A DNA stretch of 64,000 bases from Planctomycetota bacterium (GTDB taxonomy: Bacteria > Planctomycetota > UBA1135 > JAKEFM01). The notes below the pieces were generated by a model that worked only from the letters and a program-made list of their open reading frames with translations, did not search any database and was not told where the DNA came from. The stretch lies in assembly GCA_022616055.1 (NCBI GenBank), contig JAKEFM010000283.1:1-64000 (forward strand). Reading direction: 5' to 3'. The position numbers and the translations under genes were made by a program. Every line of letters starts with the position of its first letter. The first letter of the stretch is position 1. Positions 1-8,779 of the stretch are shown here, one piece after another.

Positions 1-172
1 CCCTGGGGAACCCCATGCCCGCAACTATCGGGCCAAAGCGTACCCAGGGTCCGGACCGGTGTCCTTCCAGTAGCCCGCATGGGTTCTAGGATGTGCTCTA
101 ACGCCGGAGCCGATCGTCGGCAGAATGGACGCGCCGGCGCTGTCCGGTCCTCGTCTGTATCCACCCGGCCGG

Positions 173-1768
173 ATGACTCCCCTCGCGCGATCCCTCCTCC
201 TCCTCGTCGCGTTCCTGGCCCGTGCCGCTCCCTCGCAGGAGGCGGTCGAGGGAAGTCCCTCGGCGGAGGCCTCCTGCGCCGGCTGCCACCCCGGCTCCGT
301 GCGCGCGATCCTCTCCGGCGCGCATGCCCCCACGGTCGAGTCGACCGCGCTCGACGGGTGCGCGACCTGCCACGGCCCCGGGGAGAAGCACGCGCGGACG
401 AGCCGGCCCGCGGACATCCTCGGCTTCTCGCGTCTCTCGGCGGAGCGGACGACCGGGTCGTGCGCCCTCTGCCACGCCTCCGAGATCCGCGCCTACCACC
501 GCTGGGACGAGTCGGAGGTCAAGGAGGCGGGGAAGCGCTGCACCGACTGCCACCGCGTGCACGAGCCGCGAGGGGCGCGCCTCGCCGAGCGCGACCTGCG
601 CCGGTTCCTGGATCCCCCCTCGCTCGCGGCCGCAGCGACCTCCGTCGGGGCGGAGACCTGCGCCTCGTGCCACGGGCGCCAGGCGCAGCGGCTGGGTCTC
701 TCCGACCACGCGAAGCTCGCCCCCGGCGGGGAGGATGCGCGGGGCTGCGAGGTCTGCCACGGGCCGGGATCCCTCCACGCGGAGGCGAAGGGGGTCCGCC
801 GGCTCATCACGCGCCCCGACGGGCCGCGCGCCAGAGGGATCGCGACCTGCCGAGAGTGCCACGCGGGGGTGGACCCCGTGAGGTTCCACTGGGAGAAGCC
901 TCCCCTTCTCGCGGCCGAATCGTGCGCGGTCTGTCACCGCGTTCACGTCCCCCGCGAGGAGGGATGGAAGGCCGGACTCTGGGTCGAGGGGGCGCCTGGG
1001 GTTTCCGGGGGATACGTGGGGGACGCGGCTTGCCGGCGGTGCCACGCGCCGGCCTTCGGGGATCTCGGCGACACGAACCACCGGCCCCGTCCGGTCGACG
1101 CCGACGACCCGCCCCACCGCGGCTGCGAGGGGTGCCACGGACCGGGGGCCGTCCACGCGGCGTCCGGGGGGCGCAAGCCGCTCGAGGGAGGGCGCTTCCC
1201 GGGAGACGCGGCCTGCTTCGCCTGCCACCGGGAGGCGCAGCACTTCGCGCGCTGGCCGGGGAGCGACCACGCGCGAGCGGGGATCTCCTGCCGCGACTGC
1301 CACCCCGTCGCCCAGCCGTCGCTCCCGGCGAAGGTCCAGCGCGCGTCGGACCGCTGCGCCACGTGCCATCCCGACGTCGCGGCGCAGTTCCGCCTCCCCA
1401 CCCACCATCCCCTCCCGGAGGGGGCGATCCGGTGCACGGACTGCCACGATCCCCACCAGGGCTCGGCGCGGACGAACGACCTGGCGCTGGGGCGCGACGG
1501 CTGCGTCAACTGCCACCGCGAGAAGTCGGGGCCCTTCGTCTTCCACCACGAGGCGGACCGGGTCGAGGGGTGCGTCGTCTGCCACGAGCCCCACGGGTCG
1601 GTGAACCGCCGCCTCCTGACCCATCCGACGACGCACACGCTCTGCCTCCAGTGCCACAGCGACACGCCCCTCTTCCACGACCAGACGCCCGGCTCCTTCT
1701 GGAGGCGCTGCGTCGACTGCCACGCCGAGATCCACGGCTCGCAGTTCGACCGGCTCTACTTCCGGTGA
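173..1768 (+). CDS. Secreted/periplasmic multiheme c-type cytochrome (18 CXXCH), DmsE/MtrA-like C-terminal part
   Basis: Translated ORF 125..1768 with ATG at 173 followed by a hydrophobic signal (MTPLARSLLLLVAFLARA). 18 CXXCH motifs counted; C-terminal CTDCHDPHQGS...CVVCHEPHGSVNRRLL is typical of DmsE/MtrA-like decahemes. Confidence 0.93.
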   Translation: MTPLARSLLLLVAFLARAAPSQEAVEGSPSAEASCAGCHPGSVRAILSGAHAPTVESTALDGCATCHGPGEKHARTSRPADILGFSRLSAERTTGSCALCHASEIRAYHRWDESEVKEAGKRCTDCHRVHEPRGARLAERDLRRFLDPPSLAAAATSVGAETCASCHGRQAQRLGLSDHAKLAPGGEDARGCEVCHGPGSLHAEAKGVRRLITRPDGPRARGIATCRECHAGVDPVRFHWEKPPLLAAESCAVCHRVHVPREEGWKAGLWVEGAPGVSGGYVGDAACRRCHAPAFGDLGDTNHRPRPVDADDPPHRGCEGCHGPGAVHAASGGRKPLEGGRFPGDAACFACHREAQHFARWPGSDHARAGISCRDCHPVAQPSLPAKVQRASDRCATCHPDVAAQFRLPTHHPLPEGAIRCTDCHDPHQGSARTNDLALGRDGCVNCHREKSGPFVFHHEADRVEGCVVCHEPHGSVNRRLLTHPTTHTLCLQCHSDTPLFHDQTPGSFWRRCVDCHAEIHGSQFDRLYFR

Positions 1769-4065
1769 GCGCGCTCCTCGGCCTCGCGCTGGCGGCGATC
1801 GGCGCCGCGGGTCCTCGGGCGCAGGCGGAGGCGGGGTGCCTCGTCTGCCACCGCGCCGCGACCCGGAGCCTCCTCGCCTCCAGCCACGCGGGGCTCGATC
1901 CCGGTCGCATCGAGGGGGGACCGGCCCTTCCCCGGTTCGTCCCGGAGGTCCGCCCGAGCCGGGAGTCGGCCTGCGTCGCCTGTCACGGGCCGGGGGCGAG
2001 CCACGTCGAGGACGCGAAGGCGCGGCGCCATGCCCCAGGCTCCTACCCGATCCCCGCGGGCGCGTGCGTCGCCTGCCACGCCGAGCCGCAGCGCCTCCAC
2101 CGGGACGTGAGGGAGTTTCGCCCGGAGCGGTCCTGCGAGGAGTGCCACCGCGTGCATGTTCCGCGGCCGGCCACGGGACCGGAGGCCGCCGCCGGGCGTG
2201 AAGGAGGGGAGCCGGCGGAAGGGTCGAGAGTCGGGCCGTTCGCGATCACGGGCTTCGCGGACTTCGGCGTCCGGGGCGTCCGGGTCTCGGGCTCGGAGGA
2301 CCAGTACCAGCAGGACGTGAACCTCGACTCGGGGGCGCGCCTCCTCGGGGGGCGGATCGAGGGGAGGGCGGTGGAGGAGGCCCCGGTCGACGCGTTCGTC
2401 CTCGCGGTGCGCGGCTTCTCGGATCCCCACCGCGCGGCCCGCGCCGAGGCCGTGAAGGAGGAGCGATGGAGGGCGCGCGCCGACTGGAGTCGGGACGAGT
2501 ACGTCTTCCGTACCCCCTCGGACTTCCACCGCCGGGACGGGAAGCGGGAGGAGGTGGAGATCGCCGTCTCGACCGACCCCGCCCTCCCGGGGGATCCCAC
2601 CCTCGGCTTCGACTACGCGCAGACCTGGCGGCGCGGCGACGAGCGCGGGACGCTCCTCGTCATCCCGTTCCTCCTCTTCCCGGCGGACACGCTCCTCCAG
2701 CCGCCGAACAACCGGGTCAAGGAGACGGGCATCTCCCGGACCGTCGGCGGCAACCTGCGGTTCGAGCTCGGGGGCTTCGGGGTGTTCGTCCGGCCGGAGT
2801 GGAGGGAGCACGTCGCGGACGCGCGGATCCACTTCCAGGGATCGGCCCCCGTCGCCGCGGGGGTCGCGGTCTCGGAACGCGACCTCGACGAGGAGATCCG
2901 GAACCGGGCTCCCGCGGTCACGGCGCGAGCGGCGCGGTCGTTCCTCGACGGCGCCGTCGACCTCGACGCGGGCTTCCGGTACGAGGAGGCGGACGTCGAC
3001 TCGGACCTCCACGAGAGCCTGGCCGGGACCACCCCCGGCGGGCCCTTCACCTCGCAGACGGATGCGGACGGATCGAGCCGCAGCCGCCGATCGGAGTTCG
3101 ACGTCGAGGGGAGGGTGCGGCCCCTCGAGGGAGCCGAGCTGCGGCTGCGGGCCCTCCGGAGGGAGGAGGACGTCCGGAGCCGGCTCCTGTCGAACGTCTT
3201 CGTCACCCCGCCCGGGTTCCCGATCCCGTTCCAGTTCAAGACGAAGGTGGACAGCATCGTCGAGGTGGCCCAGGCCGAGCTGCGGGTGCGGACGGCGCCG
3301 TTCCTCGACCTGCGGATCGGGGGAGAGGGCTTCCGGCAGCGGCTCGACTACGTCGGCGCGACCTTCCCGGGCGTCGCCCCGCCGCCCGACCGGATGACCA
3401 CCATCGGTCCCTCGGCCGGGGCGACGGTCCGGCCCGCGCGCGGCTGGACCCTGGACCTCGACTTCCAGACGGCGGACGCGTCCGACACCCTCTACGAGAT
3501 CCAGCCCGAGGAGGCCGCCTCCTGGCGGGTCCGGCTCCGGGGGCGCGTGTCCTCCGACCTGCTCCTCCAGGGGTGGGTGCGGCGCCAGACCTCCCGGGTC
3601 GAGGACTACGTCGGCGAGTTCGGGGACCGGCTGGACGTCGACCAGAGGCTCGACGCGGCCGCCGTCACCCTCGACTGGCGCCCGCACCCCGACTTCGGCG
3701 TCTCGGCGGGATACGCGCGCCAGAGCTTCGACCGGACCGCGGACGCGGCGTTCGCCGTGGCGGGGGCGACGACGCAGGGGGAGAGCGACGTCGAGGGGGT
3801 CGTCAACGCGGGGACGTTCTCCTTCCTCGCCGACCTCACCGAGCGCCTCCGGACCCGGTCGGCGGTCTCCTACGAGCGGGCCTCCGGGGATTCCGCGTTC
3901 CGGTTCCAGGACCTCTCGGGCGCGCTCGAGTTCGACCTGACGCGGCGCTGCCTCCTCGGGACGGAGCTGCGGTACGTCGAGTACGAGCCGCACGGGAACG
4001 GACCGGAGACGGACGAGGGATACGACGCCCTCCTCGCGCTCCTCTTCGCCCGGATCGCGTTCTGA
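1765..4065 (+). CDS. Outer-membrane beta-barrel protein (MtrB/PioB-like) with N-terminal tetraheme cytochrome domain
   Basis: GTG at 1765 overlaps the upstream TGA (GTGA). Hydrophobic N-terminus VSALLGLALAAIGAAGPRAQA, then CLVCH, CVACH, CVACH, CEECH, then ~600 aa of alternating beta-strand-like sequence ending in Phe (LLFARIAF). Confidence 0.8.
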   Translation: MSALLGLALAAIGAAGPRAQAEAGCLVCHRAATRSLLASSHAGLDPGRIEGGPALPRFVPEVRPSRESACVACHGPGASHVEDAKARRHAPGSYPIPAGACVACHAEPQRLHRDVREFRPERSCEECHRVHVPRPATGPEAAAGREGGEPAEGSRVGPFAITGFADFGVRGVRVSGSEDQYQQDVNLDSGARLLGGRIEGRAVEEAPVDAFVLAVRGFSDPHRAARAEAVKEERWRARADWSRDEYVFRTPSDFHRRDGKREEVEIAVSTDPALPGDPTLGFDYAQTWRRGDERGTLLVIPFLLFPADTLLQPPNNRVKETGISRTVGGNLRFELGGFGVFVRPEWREHVADARIHFQGSAPVAAGVAVSERDLDEEIRNRAPAVTARAARSFLDGAVDLDAGFRYEEADVDSDLHESLAGTTPGGPFTSQTDADGSSRSRRSEFDVEGRVRPLEGAELRLRALRREEDVRSRLLSNVFVTPPGFPIPFQFKTKVDSIVEVAQAELRVRTAPFLDLRIGGEGFRQRLDYVGATFPGVAPPPDRMTTIGPSAGATVRPARGWTLDLDFQTADASDTLYEIQPEEAASWRVRLRGRVSSDLLLQGWVRRQTSRVEDYVGEFGDRLDVDQRLDAAAVTLDWRPHPDFGVSAGYARQSFDRTADAAFAVAGATTQGESDVEGVVNAGTFSFLADLTERLRTRSAVSYERASGDSAFRFQDLSGALEFDLTRRCLLGTELRYVEYEPHGNGPETDEGYDALLALLFARIAF

Positions 4066-4973: not shown

Positions 4974-7724
4974 TCAGAAGGGGCCGTAGGCGACGAAGGC
5001 GGCTTGCACGAAGGGGTCGGGCTCGTGTGGTGAGCCCAGCGAGCGCCGGGCGAGAGCCAGGGCGAGAGGGACGGAGCGGGTCTCGAGAAGGCGGTCGTAG
5101 AACACGCTCATCAGCTCGGGAGCCTTCGCATCTTCGACCGGCCATTGGGAGACGACGACGCGGGACGCCCCTGCGAAGATGAAGGAGTAGACGAGTCCTC
5201 GTACGCCCATTCCCGGCGACGATTCACCCCCTGCTGTCTCGCAGCTTGAGAGCACGACGAGGTCGGGGTGTGAGGCAATCGCGATTGCTTCATTGAACCG
5301 GAAGACCCCGTCCGGATTCCCTTCTTCCGGCGTCAGTCGGAGGCCGAGCTGCTGGTTCCGCGTCGTCGTATGCGCGACGAGATGAAGCACCCCAGCCCTC
5401 TCGAGGGGACCGAGCAAGGCGCTCTTCCGGAAGCTCGCGCCCGTGATCACCTTGGACCGATCCTTCGGGAATCGGGCGGCGGCGGCCCGTGCCTCCGCTT
5501 CTCCGAAGGGAAGCCTCTGCACGCCTGGAGCCTCGGGGTTCGCGGCAGCGAGGATTCCGCGCTTCAGGGCGAGAGGACGATCTGCCAGCACGGCGAGGAG
5601 GCCTGCGGAGGGCGCGTAGGCGAAGACACAGTCATCGCCGAGTAGCCGCAGTCCCCGATCCGCCCCTGGCGCTGCAAGCGATTCGAAGGGAAGGCCGAAC
5701 AGGGGTCCGTCCGGGACGAGGTAGACCTCTCGCCCGGCGATCCGCTGCCAGAGGCCTCCGGGCAGCAGGCGCATGGCGAGGGCGCGCGATGCGTCGAAGA
5801 ACCTCTGGCGCAGCCCGGGGACCGCGCGCGTCTGGCGGAGGAGCGAGAGATAGGAATCGACCTCCCGTCCTAGGTCGGCCGCGGCCGGGAGAGCGAAGAC
5901 TTCCGAACGATCCTCACCGAGCAAGAACAGCCACGAGCGATCTTCCCCTACGAAGTACTCGAGGAGTACGCGGTTTCCGGAGACGAGCGCCTGGGCCTGC
6001 TCGAAGGTGGAGGGGCGGGGGACAAGACCTCCCTTGGCCCCTACAGCTCGTCGGAGCGCGGTGCTCGCAGCTTCGAGATCCTGGAGGGCCCTCGCGAGCG
6101 CGGCGCGCAGGCTCTCGGCGCGCATCGCGTCTCGTTCTCTGTGGATGGCGGTCGAGACCCCTCCGACGCGGTGCAGGGCGGCCTGTCGGGCCGCCTGGAG
6201 TTCGGGGGGCGCGGATGCGTTCGGGTCGATCCCGTAGCGCTCCAGTTCCTCGAGGAACGCCCGGGCTTTCGAGCGTTCCGACAGTTCGAACGCCTCGGCG
6301 ACCCTGCTGTGGTCATTCCTCAACACGGCCTGGATCGCAGTCTCGAACGCCCGAAAGGGCCATTCTTGAACCGCGTAGTCGAGGGCGAGGCCGGTCTCGA
6401 TCTCGGGAAGGGCCGCCTCGATCGATTCCGCGGCCTCGCGGGCGAGGCTTTCGGCCGTCCCCGCATTGCCTTCGTCGAGGGCGCACCGGGCGAGCACCAC
6501 GCGGGCGGCGAGGAAGGCCCCAGACCGAGGTGAAAACCGAGGGTCGGCCAGGATCGGCGCCACGCGGCTGGATGCATCCGAGGGCCGACGAAGAGCACGA
6601 AGGCACTGCGCGGCGTTGACCCGTGCCGCGGCCTCCGTCTCCGGGTTCCCAGCGAGGAGAGCCGCTTGCGCGGCCTCGTCGAAAAGGGAGAGGGCGGATT
6701 CGTGGTTTCCTTGAACATGGAGGACTCGGCCCCTGAGAAACGAGGCATTAGCCACGGTCAAGCCCTGATCCCACGACTCCACCGCAACCCGGGCGAGTCC
6801 TTCGGCTTCCGGGAGCCGCCCGCGCCAGAACGAGATCCTCGCAAGGCTGAGCTGAACTTCCGCCCGCAAGGCTCCGCCCCTTTCTCCGAGCTCGTCCAGG
6901 GCACGGCTCGCTTCGGCCAGGTCGATGCCCGCCTGCCCGAAGTCGCGCTCCCCGATGTGCACCTTGCCGAACAGGGCGAATACCTCAGCGCGGAGGCGGA
7001 GATCCGAGACTACGCTCTCGATGGCCGCCCTCAATTCCCGCTTCGCCACACCCGAATCTCCTCGCATGAGACATAGGCGCGCGAGGGAGAGCCGGTGAAC
7101 GCTCGCCGCCGAGGAAACGCCGCGCGTCTCGGCGAGGCGGATCGCCTCTCGCAGCGGATCCTCGAACCTCTCGTGGCCCGCAAGCGCGCGGTAGACGGCG
7201 AGCTTTGAGAGGACCTCCTCCTCCGCGAGGGTGGACGCAATGCGCCGGGATCGGATGGCAGCCTCTTCAAGAAGTTCGACGGCCTCGGCGAAGCGACTCT
7301 CTCGCTCACGGATGAGTGCGAGGCGCGAGAGGACTTGGATCGCGCGGTTGTCGTCTTCGATCTTGCGGAACTCGGCGAGAGCTCCTTCCATCTTCCGTCG
7401 CGCAGTCGCGTCGTCGCCCGCCAGGAATGCCGCCTGCCCGGCAAGTGCGTCGGCCAGGGCGGCGAGATCCCGGCGCACTTCCTCCACGGACATCGCCCCG
7501 AACTGCGCCAAGAGGAGGGTAGGCGTCTGCGTCCCTTCGGCCACACAGAGCCAGTCGGCGAGAAAGCGGAGCCCAGGCTCGAGACTCCGCGCCGTCTCGT
7601 CGTCCTCCGCCGCCCGCGCGGCGAGCCAGGTGTCGAGGTCCGCCAGGAACCGTCCCTTCAGTCCAGCGGGATCCTGGGGTCCCGCGCAGAGGAGCGAAGC
7701 GAGAGCGAACGCGGCCCGAATCAC
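4974..7724 (-). CDS. TPR-repeat CHAT-domain protein (caspase-like peptidase), probably exported
   Basis: GTG at 7724 overlaps the upstream TGA (GTGA). Signal-like N-terminus VIRAAFALASLLCAG, helical TPR-like repeats, C-terminal CHAT motifs GVLHLVAHTTT and LVVLSSCETAGGE (His/Cys dyad). Confidence 0.88.
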   Translation of the reverse strand: MIRAAFALASLLCAGPQDPAGLKGRFLADLDTWLAARAAEDDETARSLEPGLRFLADWLCVAEGTQTPTLLLAQFGAMSVEEVRRDLAALADALAGQAAFLAGDDATARRKMEGALAEFRKIEDDNRAIQVLSRLALIRERESRFAEAVELLEEAAIRSRRIASTLAEEEVLSKLAVYRALAGHERFEDPLREAIRLAETRGVSSAASVHRLSLARLCLMRGDSGVAKRELRAAIESVVSDLRLRAEVFALFGKVHIGERDFGQAGIDLAEASRALDELGERGGALRAEVQLSLARISFWRGRLPEAEGLARVAVESWDQGLTVANASFLRGRVLHVQGNHESALSLFDEAAQAALLAGNPETEAAARVNAAQCLRALRRPSDASSRVAPILADPRFSPRSGAFLAARVVLARCALDEGNAGTAESLAREAAESIEAALPEIETGLALDYAVQEWPFRAFETAIQAVLRNDHSRVAEAFELSERSKARAFLEELERYGIDPNASAPPELQAARQAALHRVGGVSTAIHRERDAMRAESLRAALARALQDLEAASTALRRAVGAKGGLVPRPSTFEQAQALVSGNRVLLEYFVGEDRSWLFLLGEDRSEVFALPAAADLGREVDSYLSLLRQTRAVPGLRQRFFDASRALAMRLLPGGLWQRIAGREVYLVPDGPLFGLPFESLAAPGADRGLRLLGDDCVFAYAPSAGLLAVLADRPLALKRGILAAANPEAPGVQRLPFGEAEARAAAARFPKDRSKVITGASFRKSALLGPLERAGVLHLVAHTTTRNQQLGLRLTPEEGNPDGVFRFNEAIAIASHPDLVVLSSCETAGGESSPGMGVRGLVYSFIFAGASRVVVSQWPVEDAKAPELMSVFYDRLLETRSVPLALALARRSLGSPHEPDPFVQAAFVAYGPF

Positions 7725-8779
7725 CGGGGGACGGCCTCGGCCGCCAGACGCGTGAGGAGCTCCCGAGACGCCGGGTTCCACGGCACGCCCATTCTCCCGG
7801 CGAGGAGTTCGGCCTCTTTCAACTCTCCCGCGCGGAGGAAGGCGAGCAACGCGTCGGGGAGGCAGCCGACGTCCCTCAGGAATGTCGCGGTCTGGCGGTC
7901 CTTGCCCTCAAGGAGGCGGAGTGCGGCGCGGATCGATTCGACCTCGGCGTGCACACGGATATCCCGAGGATCGTGGCGCCGGTCGGACGTCGACTCGCGC
8001 CATACGACCTCCACGATGTACGAAGTGTCCCGCTCGAGGACCGCTTCCGGAGGGATCACCGTGAAATGCCCGCGGGTCGGGGCGCTCCACAGCCGCTCGC
8101 CGCGCCCTGCTCCGGAGCCCTTCGTCCACACCGCGACATCGACTTCCTCCTCAGGCCCGAACCATGCGACCGCGGGCACGACGACGGGAAAGTCGACGGG
8201 AGGCCAGATCAGCGCGAACTCCTCCGGCCCTGTCCTCCAGGTCTCCTCCTCCGGCTCCTGTCGCGGCGGGGGCCCGACTTGCCAGAGGACGAGGGCGAGG
8301 AGGATTCCGGCAGCCGCCGCGAACGCCGCGTGCCGGGCCGTCCCGATTCGTCGCAGGGAACCCGGACCGAGTTCGGGAAGCACGCGCGAGGGGAGGGCCC
8401 CGCTCTGGACGAGGTCCTGGCACTGGTCCCGGCGTACCTTCTCCACGTCCTTCATGCAATCGGCGCAGTCGAGGGCATGGATCTCGACGGCGGATCGACG
8501 GGCCCAGGTGAGAGAGTGGGCCCCGAGGCCGCCGGCGAAGTCGTAGAGATCCTCGGCCGACGGGTGGTGCTCCGCGGTCAGCTCGAAGGCGCGTGGGATC
8601 ATCTCCTCGGCCGCGCGGAGCAGGACGAGGCGTTTGCGGCATCCCTCGCATCGCTCGAGGTGAGCCTCCAAGGCGAGGCCTTCCCCGCCGTGGAGCTCGT
8701 CGTACCGAACGAGCATCTCGCGGTCGAACCTCGGGTCGATGCAGGGAGGAATCTCGGTCCCAGGTCCGGAGTCAGCCAT
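7721..8779 (-). CDS. Zinc-finger (anti-sigma-factor-like) single-pass membrane protein
   Basis: HLERCEGCRKR (HxxxCxxC) and IHALDCADC motifs in the N-terminal half; TM segment AAFAAAAGILLALVLWQVG; C-terminal extracytoplasmic domain. Confidence 0.75.
   Translation of the reverse strand: MADSGPGTEIPPCIDPRFDREMLVRYDELHGGEGLALEAHLERCEGCRKRLVLLRAAEEMIPRAFELTAEHHPSAEDLYDFAGGLGAHSLTWARRSAVEIHALDCADCMKDVEKVRRDQCQDLVQSGALPSRVLPELGPGSLRRIGTARHAAFAAAAGILLALVLWQVGPPPRQEPEEETWRTGPEEFALIWPPVDFPVVVPAVAWFGPEEEVDVAVWTKGSGAGRGERLWSAPTRGHFTVIPPEAVLERDTSYIVEVVWRESTSDRRHDPRDIRVHAEVESIRAALRLLEGKDRQTATFLRDVGCLPDALLAFLRAGELKEAELLAGRMGVPWNPASRELLTRLAAEAVPR

Follow-up and report, generated by a model that had tools for sequence, protein, structure and literature searches.

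Tetraheme modules on both partners of an MtrAB-type gene pair in Planctomycetota

The first 64 kb of contig C174 (75.5 kb, one of 394 contigs in the draft genome of a Planctomycetota bacterium), hereafter the window, open with two adjacent genes, A and B, that probably encode an MtrAB-type porin-cytochrome conduit of the planctomycete outer membrane. Gene A codes for a c-type cytochrome with 18 hemes, whose wire would be extended into the periplasm, and gene B for a predicted outer-membrane barrel to which an additional multiheme module is tethered. They are the only two open reading frames of the window with at least two CxxCH heme motifs. In known conduits, to our knowledge, the cytochrome that acts as wire and the barrel that insulates it are separate proteins; Cyc2 with its one heme is the only well-known fusion. 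An earlier note on this stretch of DNA had already proposed a barrel that brings hemes of its own.

Architecture of the two genes

The pair comprises the following features, given in window coordinates.

125..1768, + strand: gene A, c-type cytochrome with 18 hemes, 547 amino acids (ATG at 125)
275..571, + strand: N-terminal tetraheme module 1 of A (CAGCH, CATCHGPGxxH, CALCH, CTDCHRVHEPR; motifs and alignment)
659..955, + strand: N-terminal tetraheme module 2 of A (CASCH, CEVCHGPGxxH, CRECH, CAVCHRVHVPR; motifs and alignment)
1019..1750, + strand: MtrA/DmsE-type decaheme domain of A, hemes 9-18 (TIGR03508, phmmer and Foldseek)
1765..1768, + strand: GTGA, shared by the stop codon of A and the start codon of B (4 nucleotides)
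1765..4065, + strand: gene B, tetraheme module and MtrB-type outer-membrane barrel, 766 amino acids (motifs, AlphaFold2 and Foldseek)
1837..2166, + strand: tetraheme module of B (CLVCH, CVACHGPGASH, CVACH, CEECHRVHVPR; motifs and alignment)
2239..4059, + strand: predicted beta-barrel of B, 26 strands, residues 159-765 (AlphaFold2 and Foldseek)

The 18 CxxCH motifs previously counted in gene A were recovered at nucleotides 275, 359, 461, 539, 659, 746, 848 and 923, followed by 1031, 1124, 1214, 1289, 1355, 1433, 1502, 1571, 1643 and 1709, and the motif strings quoted for the modules of both genes were correct as written. All 36 cysteines of the protein lie inside these motifs, next to 23 further histidines, and the CxxCH positions of the A modules are invariant across nine homologues. 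The gene may equally well start from an ATG at 173, right where the hydrophobic signal peptide begins. The DmsE/MtrA decaheme model TIGR03508 matches residues 299-542 with 262 bits (cut-off 192) over model positions 1-257 of 258. Because this match spans nearly the whole model, gene A is better parsed as 4+4+10, with two added tetraheme modules before a complete MtrA-type decaheme domain. The earlier division into three tetraheme modules and a six-heme tail thus holds for the first two modules, whereas the third module and the tail form one decaheme domain. The best match of gene A in the Protein Data Bank (phmmer, E=7.5e-28) and its best fold match (Foldseek, E=9e-6) are both 6r2q_A, which we read as MtrA from the title of the entry, the molecule name printed in the sequence search being wrong. 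The agreement of hemes 9-18 with the DmsE/MtrA model and with MtrA of the solved Mtr complex supports the identity of the pair as a conduit.

As had been observed, the GTG start codon of gene B (1765) lies over the TGA of A, and this GTGA overlap likely couples the translation of the two genes. Its four CxxCH motifs (nucleotides 1837, 1972, 2065 and 2134) are all found within the first 130 residues and are joined to the barrel by a short linker of about 25 residues. The C-terminal outer-membrane barrel of about 600 residues that the note had claimed was recovered by structure prediction: in the AlphaFold2 model (39 homologues), residues 155-766 mostly have a predicted local distance difference test score (pLDDT) above 90 and form 26 strands. 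The top Foldseek match of the barrel is MtrB (6r2q_B, E=4.1e-14) with a template modelling (TM) score of 0.67 normalised to the length of MtrB, while TonB receptors rank behind it (E about 2e-10, TM about 0.4). An identity as TonB receptor or other porin was rejected given these weaker matches and the 26 predicted strands.

Window B was aligned with ten relatives that carry three barrel hemes and are 20-24% identical to it. The alignment has 25 invariant columns, of which 12 are heme-ligand positions in the heme domain of about 105 residues, namely three CxxCH, two likely distal histidines and the histidine of the fourth motif of the window. Conservation in B is highest at the heme ligands, above the barrel, and since they make up 12 of the 25 invariant columns, the alignment argues strongly for actual heme binding by B.

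The modules of both proteins also resemble each other. All six pairs among modules 1 and 2 of A (A1, A2), the first four hemes of its decaheme domain (A3, the former third module) and the B module (A1-A2, A1-A3, A2-A3, A1-B, A2-B and A3-B) gave local alignments with z = 4.0 to 7.8, and none of 500 shuffles that hold every CxxCH in place reached the score, which excludes chance or low complexity as the cause of the repeated modules. The B module is nearest to modules 1 and 2 of A; the six-heme tail of A has no likeness to it, as its score was reached in 103 of 500 shuffles. Homology of the tetraheme modules of A and B is therefore supported by the alignments, and the view of the B module as a further copy of the module in A withstood this comparison.

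Relatives and module history

Relatives were collected by a contig scan over 84,980 species together with surveys of the order and phylum of the window, with phyla beyond Planctomycetota represented only by the 80 best hits of a single scan. A and B are adjacent throughout (about 80 loci), and 22 of 79 related pairs overlap by 4 nucleotides. At 17 other loci in independent genomes, a barrel with N-terminal CxxCH motifs, always in the same order, stands beside a multiheme MtrA-type gene. The fusion of a heme module to the barrel is thus real and conserved, as judged from motif counts, invariant ligands and independent loci. Pairs from Acidobacteriota and a few others have ten hemes in A and none in B (A/B of 10/0), and the following combinations occur in Planctomycetota.

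8/0: L170
14/0: L051, L052 and L171-L174
18/0: L165
14/4: L164
18/4: the window and L162
18/3: eleven loci
22/4: L161
22/8: L163 and L050

Another barrel, L166, has four hemes and an A gene that is cut at a contig end. The barrels of L163 and L050 carry their eight hemes in two MtrA-like modules. The 22-heme A gene of L050 (L050:7977-9911, + strand, the place of L169) is broken by an in-frame TAG after heme 18, with the remaining four heme motifs following in the same frame; whether this is a sequencing error, a pseudogene or a case of read-through cannot be told. Further away, L112 combines 18 hemes at a different spacing with a heme-free GSU2204-like barrel. L119 (6991-8958, + strand) encodes a barrel of the GSU2204 family with a single internal CxxCH at residue 240, which is another route to a heme motif on a barrel. 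Four other candidates (L039, L040, L042 and L043) were discarded as pair members, being other cytochromes with 7-8 hemes and no barrel.

These counts show that tetraheme modules were gained or lost repeatedly, and on both partners. The module copies cluster across species by their position (first, second, core or B) and not by genome, in a tree that is weakly resolved. The duplications appear to be old because of this grouping, and a recent tandem duplication in this genome is not supported on the same ground. Of the previously proposed duplication and fusion of modules, the homology and the varying number on both partners stand, with the duplication read as old. The three motifs in the barrels of the 18/3 clade, as opposed to four elsewhere, suggest that this clade lost the last B heme.

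Planctomycetota are set apart from Acidobacteriota both in the tree of the decaheme core and in that of the isolated barrel domain. With smaller sets of rows, both partner trees place the window beside the 18/3 clade; its exact place is not fixed when more planctomycete rows are included. On the barrel tree, the presence of B hemes needs five changes, compared with at least eight (mean 11.8) for shuffled labels. A topology holding all heme-bearing barrels in one clade was marginally rejected (approximately unbiased test, p=0.04), so that a single origin is marginally disfavoured, a result that leaves gain versus loss undecided. Moreover, heme-bearing and heme-free barrels coexist as paralogous conduits within one genome (L162 and L170 in G156; L166 and L173 in G240), and in G240 the barrels with (L166) and without (L173) the module are sisters.

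Proposed conduit, its surroundings and alternatives

By analogy with MtrCAB, the MtrA-like decaheme domain of A would sit inside the 26-strand barrel of B and carry electrons across the outer membrane. In MtrCAB, electrons enter MtrA at the periplasmic heme A1, and A10 faces MtrC on the outside, within the 26-strand MtrB (PMC8415449). Because A1 is the periplasmic entry and A10 lies at the outer face, the two extra N-terminal modules of A would extend from the periplasmic side, where MtrA takes in electrons, and form a longer wire into the periplasm. The barrel of B has an even number of strands and the N-terminus lies ahead of all of them, which would place the B module, on the linker of about 25 residues, at the periplasmic mouth of the barrel. 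In the DSSP assignment of the model, connecting loops are on average longer after odd-numbered strands, which together with the even strand number fits a periplasmic N-terminus. The module might serve as an added docking and entry or exit site for periplasmic or inner-membrane donors, or be part of the wire, which could then run through 22 hemes as the earlier note proposed.

Several observations weigh against this conduit. The heme domain of B (residues 1-150) has a pLDDT below 50, so that its position is not reliably predicted, and the presumed signal peptide lacks a basic residue ahead of the hydrophobic stretch. The search of the barrel against MtrB/PioB families suggested by the earlier note came back negative for the window, with no match to PF11854 or TIGR03509 at E<=0.1 in Pfam and NCBIfam. 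Relatives of the same fused architecture (L163 and L050) match TIGR03509 and NF041027 weakly, and the L119 barrel matches both TIGR03509 (weakly) and NF041027. Heme-free barrels among the relatives show that conduits of this family can do without the barrel module. Finally, neither an outer-surface cytochrome nor an inner-membrane donor adjoins the pair in the window, the upstream side of which is cut off.

Gene A begins 125 bases from the contig end, which hides its upstream neighbour. Window positions 1-72 recur at the ends of contigs C261 and C153 (L025 and L026; last 100 bases identical), and as the contig start is common to both ends, the region immediately upstream of gene A is a dispersed repeat or an assembly fork, which masks the true neighbour of the gene. 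No multiheme gene was seen on C261 or C153, which were checked as possible upstream continuations. Elsewhere in the genome, a cytochrome c assembly protein is encoded on C282, and a membrane-anchored multiheme cytochrome of the NapC/NrfH type is clustered with other multiheme genes on C12 at about 6.8 kb (L176); it is a possible candidate for the inner-membrane donor. Downstream of the pair, positions 4977-7781 (- strand) encode a large CHAT-domain protein with TPR repeats that has no evident tie to the conduit.

What lies beside the pair in relatives is consistent with electron transfer in a chain. The 22/8 pairs are flanked by a 13-heme lipoprotein and a membrane cytochrome of the NapC/NrfH type, which make the chain nearly complete, and by a tetraheme cytochrome. 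Several 18/3 pairs have upstream of them a lipoprotein-like protein with two CxxCH, a candidate outer-surface partner, and a PSCyt1 domain was found in both diheme lipoproteins that were scanned (L044 and L111).

L050:12611-16800 and L163:6467-10992: 13-heme lipoprotein and five-heme NapC/NrfH-type membrane protein (MtrC/MtrF-like domain match in L050)
L044:2259-4700, L045:5059-7971 and L111:5197-7872, also in L037: lipoprotein-like protein of more than 800 amino acids with two CxxCH, directly upstream of gene A

The B module might instead lie outside the main wire, as a separate periplasmic docking platform or a plug of the barrel that collects electrons from soluble cytochromes or aids assembly, so that A alone carries the transmembrane current. 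We give this view a real, if minor, share of probability, as many relatives (A14/B0 and A18/B0) lack the barrel module, the sister barrels L166 and L173 differ in it, one clade has only three B hemes, the linker to the barrel varies, and the N-terminal heme domain of Cyc2 is thought to plug its barrel from the periplasmic side (PMC8406198). However, conservation in B is higher at the heme ligands than in the barrel, and eight barrel hemes in two MtrA-like modules, as in L163 and L050, would be expected of a wire and not of a plug. That the module is a misassembly or a one-off fusion in a metagenome-derived genome has next to no probability: the pair does stand at the extreme end of a contig in a draft of 394 contigs, but the 17 other loci in independent genomes with the same motif order refute an artefact.

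A further alternative concerns the direction of flow and is compatible with the conduit proposed here. The complex could mainly import electrons, like MtoAB and PioAB, from Fe(II) or some other donor outside the cell. This view, too, has a real, if minor, share of probability, in view of the absence of an MtrC/OmcA-type surface cytochrome beside most pairs examined (as in MtoAB/PioAB) and of any recognised dissimilatory reductase nearby. On the other hand, the lipoprotein and NapC/NrfH-type protein adjoining the 22/8 pairs resemble an export chain, and the flow direction is not readable from sequence.

Known systems and implications

We regard the pair as a probable new form of the MtrAB-type conduit, outside strict membership in the MtrB/PioB sequence families. 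It shares with MtrAB, MtoAB and PioAB a decaheme MtrA-type domain and an adjacent gene for a 26-strand barrel, and the top structural matches of both proteins are chains of the solved MtrCAB (6r2q). In those systems, however, the barrel is heme-free and MtrA has ten hemes, whereas here the barrel has four and the cytochrome eight more, and the barrel of the window fails the MtrB/PioB sequence models. The Acidobacteriota pairs (e.g. L053 and L085) likewise consist of adjacent genes with a homologous decaheme domain and an alignable barrel, but with ten hemes and a heme-free barrel. Geobacter GSU2203-GSU2204 (NF041028/NF041027) combines a decaheme cytochrome family with an MtrB/PioB-like barrel family annotated as CXXCH-containing. 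Its member L119, in contrast, has a single CxxCH inside the barrel region and no N-terminal multiheme module, and NF041027 has no match in window B at E<=0.1 and none in the genome of the window (G000).

Cyc2 is the nearest known fusion to gene B. Like Cyt572, it joins an N-terminal c-type domain with one heme to an outer-membrane barrel of about 16 strands within a single polypeptide (PMC8406198, PMC10654088). No MtrA partner is described for Cyc2, unlike window B with its four MtrA-type hemes, 26 predicted strands and 18-heme partner. The PCC3 clusters of iron oxidisers, compared here by description only, also feature very large heme numbers and repeated modules (periplasmic cytochrome with a median of 21 hemes), yet these clusters are described as non-homologous to MtrAB and their porin is separate (PMC5566968). 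No report of a multiheme module on an MtrB-type barrel, or of such systems in Planctomycetota, was found in openly searchable papers, with subscription papers and preprints outside the search.

We tentatively propose that Planctomycetota possess a combinatorial heme-wire kit, in which an MtrA-type core takes up tetraheme modules in tandem at its periplasmic end (14, 18 or 22 hemes) and the barrel acquires them independently (0, 3, 4 or 8). With up to about 30 hemes and the barrel hemes electronically joined to the partner chain, such wires might span part of the periplasm with no need for soluble shuttles. For annotators, the pair provides a pattern that current MtrB models miss. A heme-bearing barrel and a partner wire that varies by four hemes offer a natural series on wire length, periplasmic reach and extracellular electron transfer. 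Probable MtrAB-type conduits are thereby extended within a phylum that is seldom considered for extracellular electron transfer, and the module variation on both partners hints at a set of building blocks with which electrons could be carried out of cells or into them.

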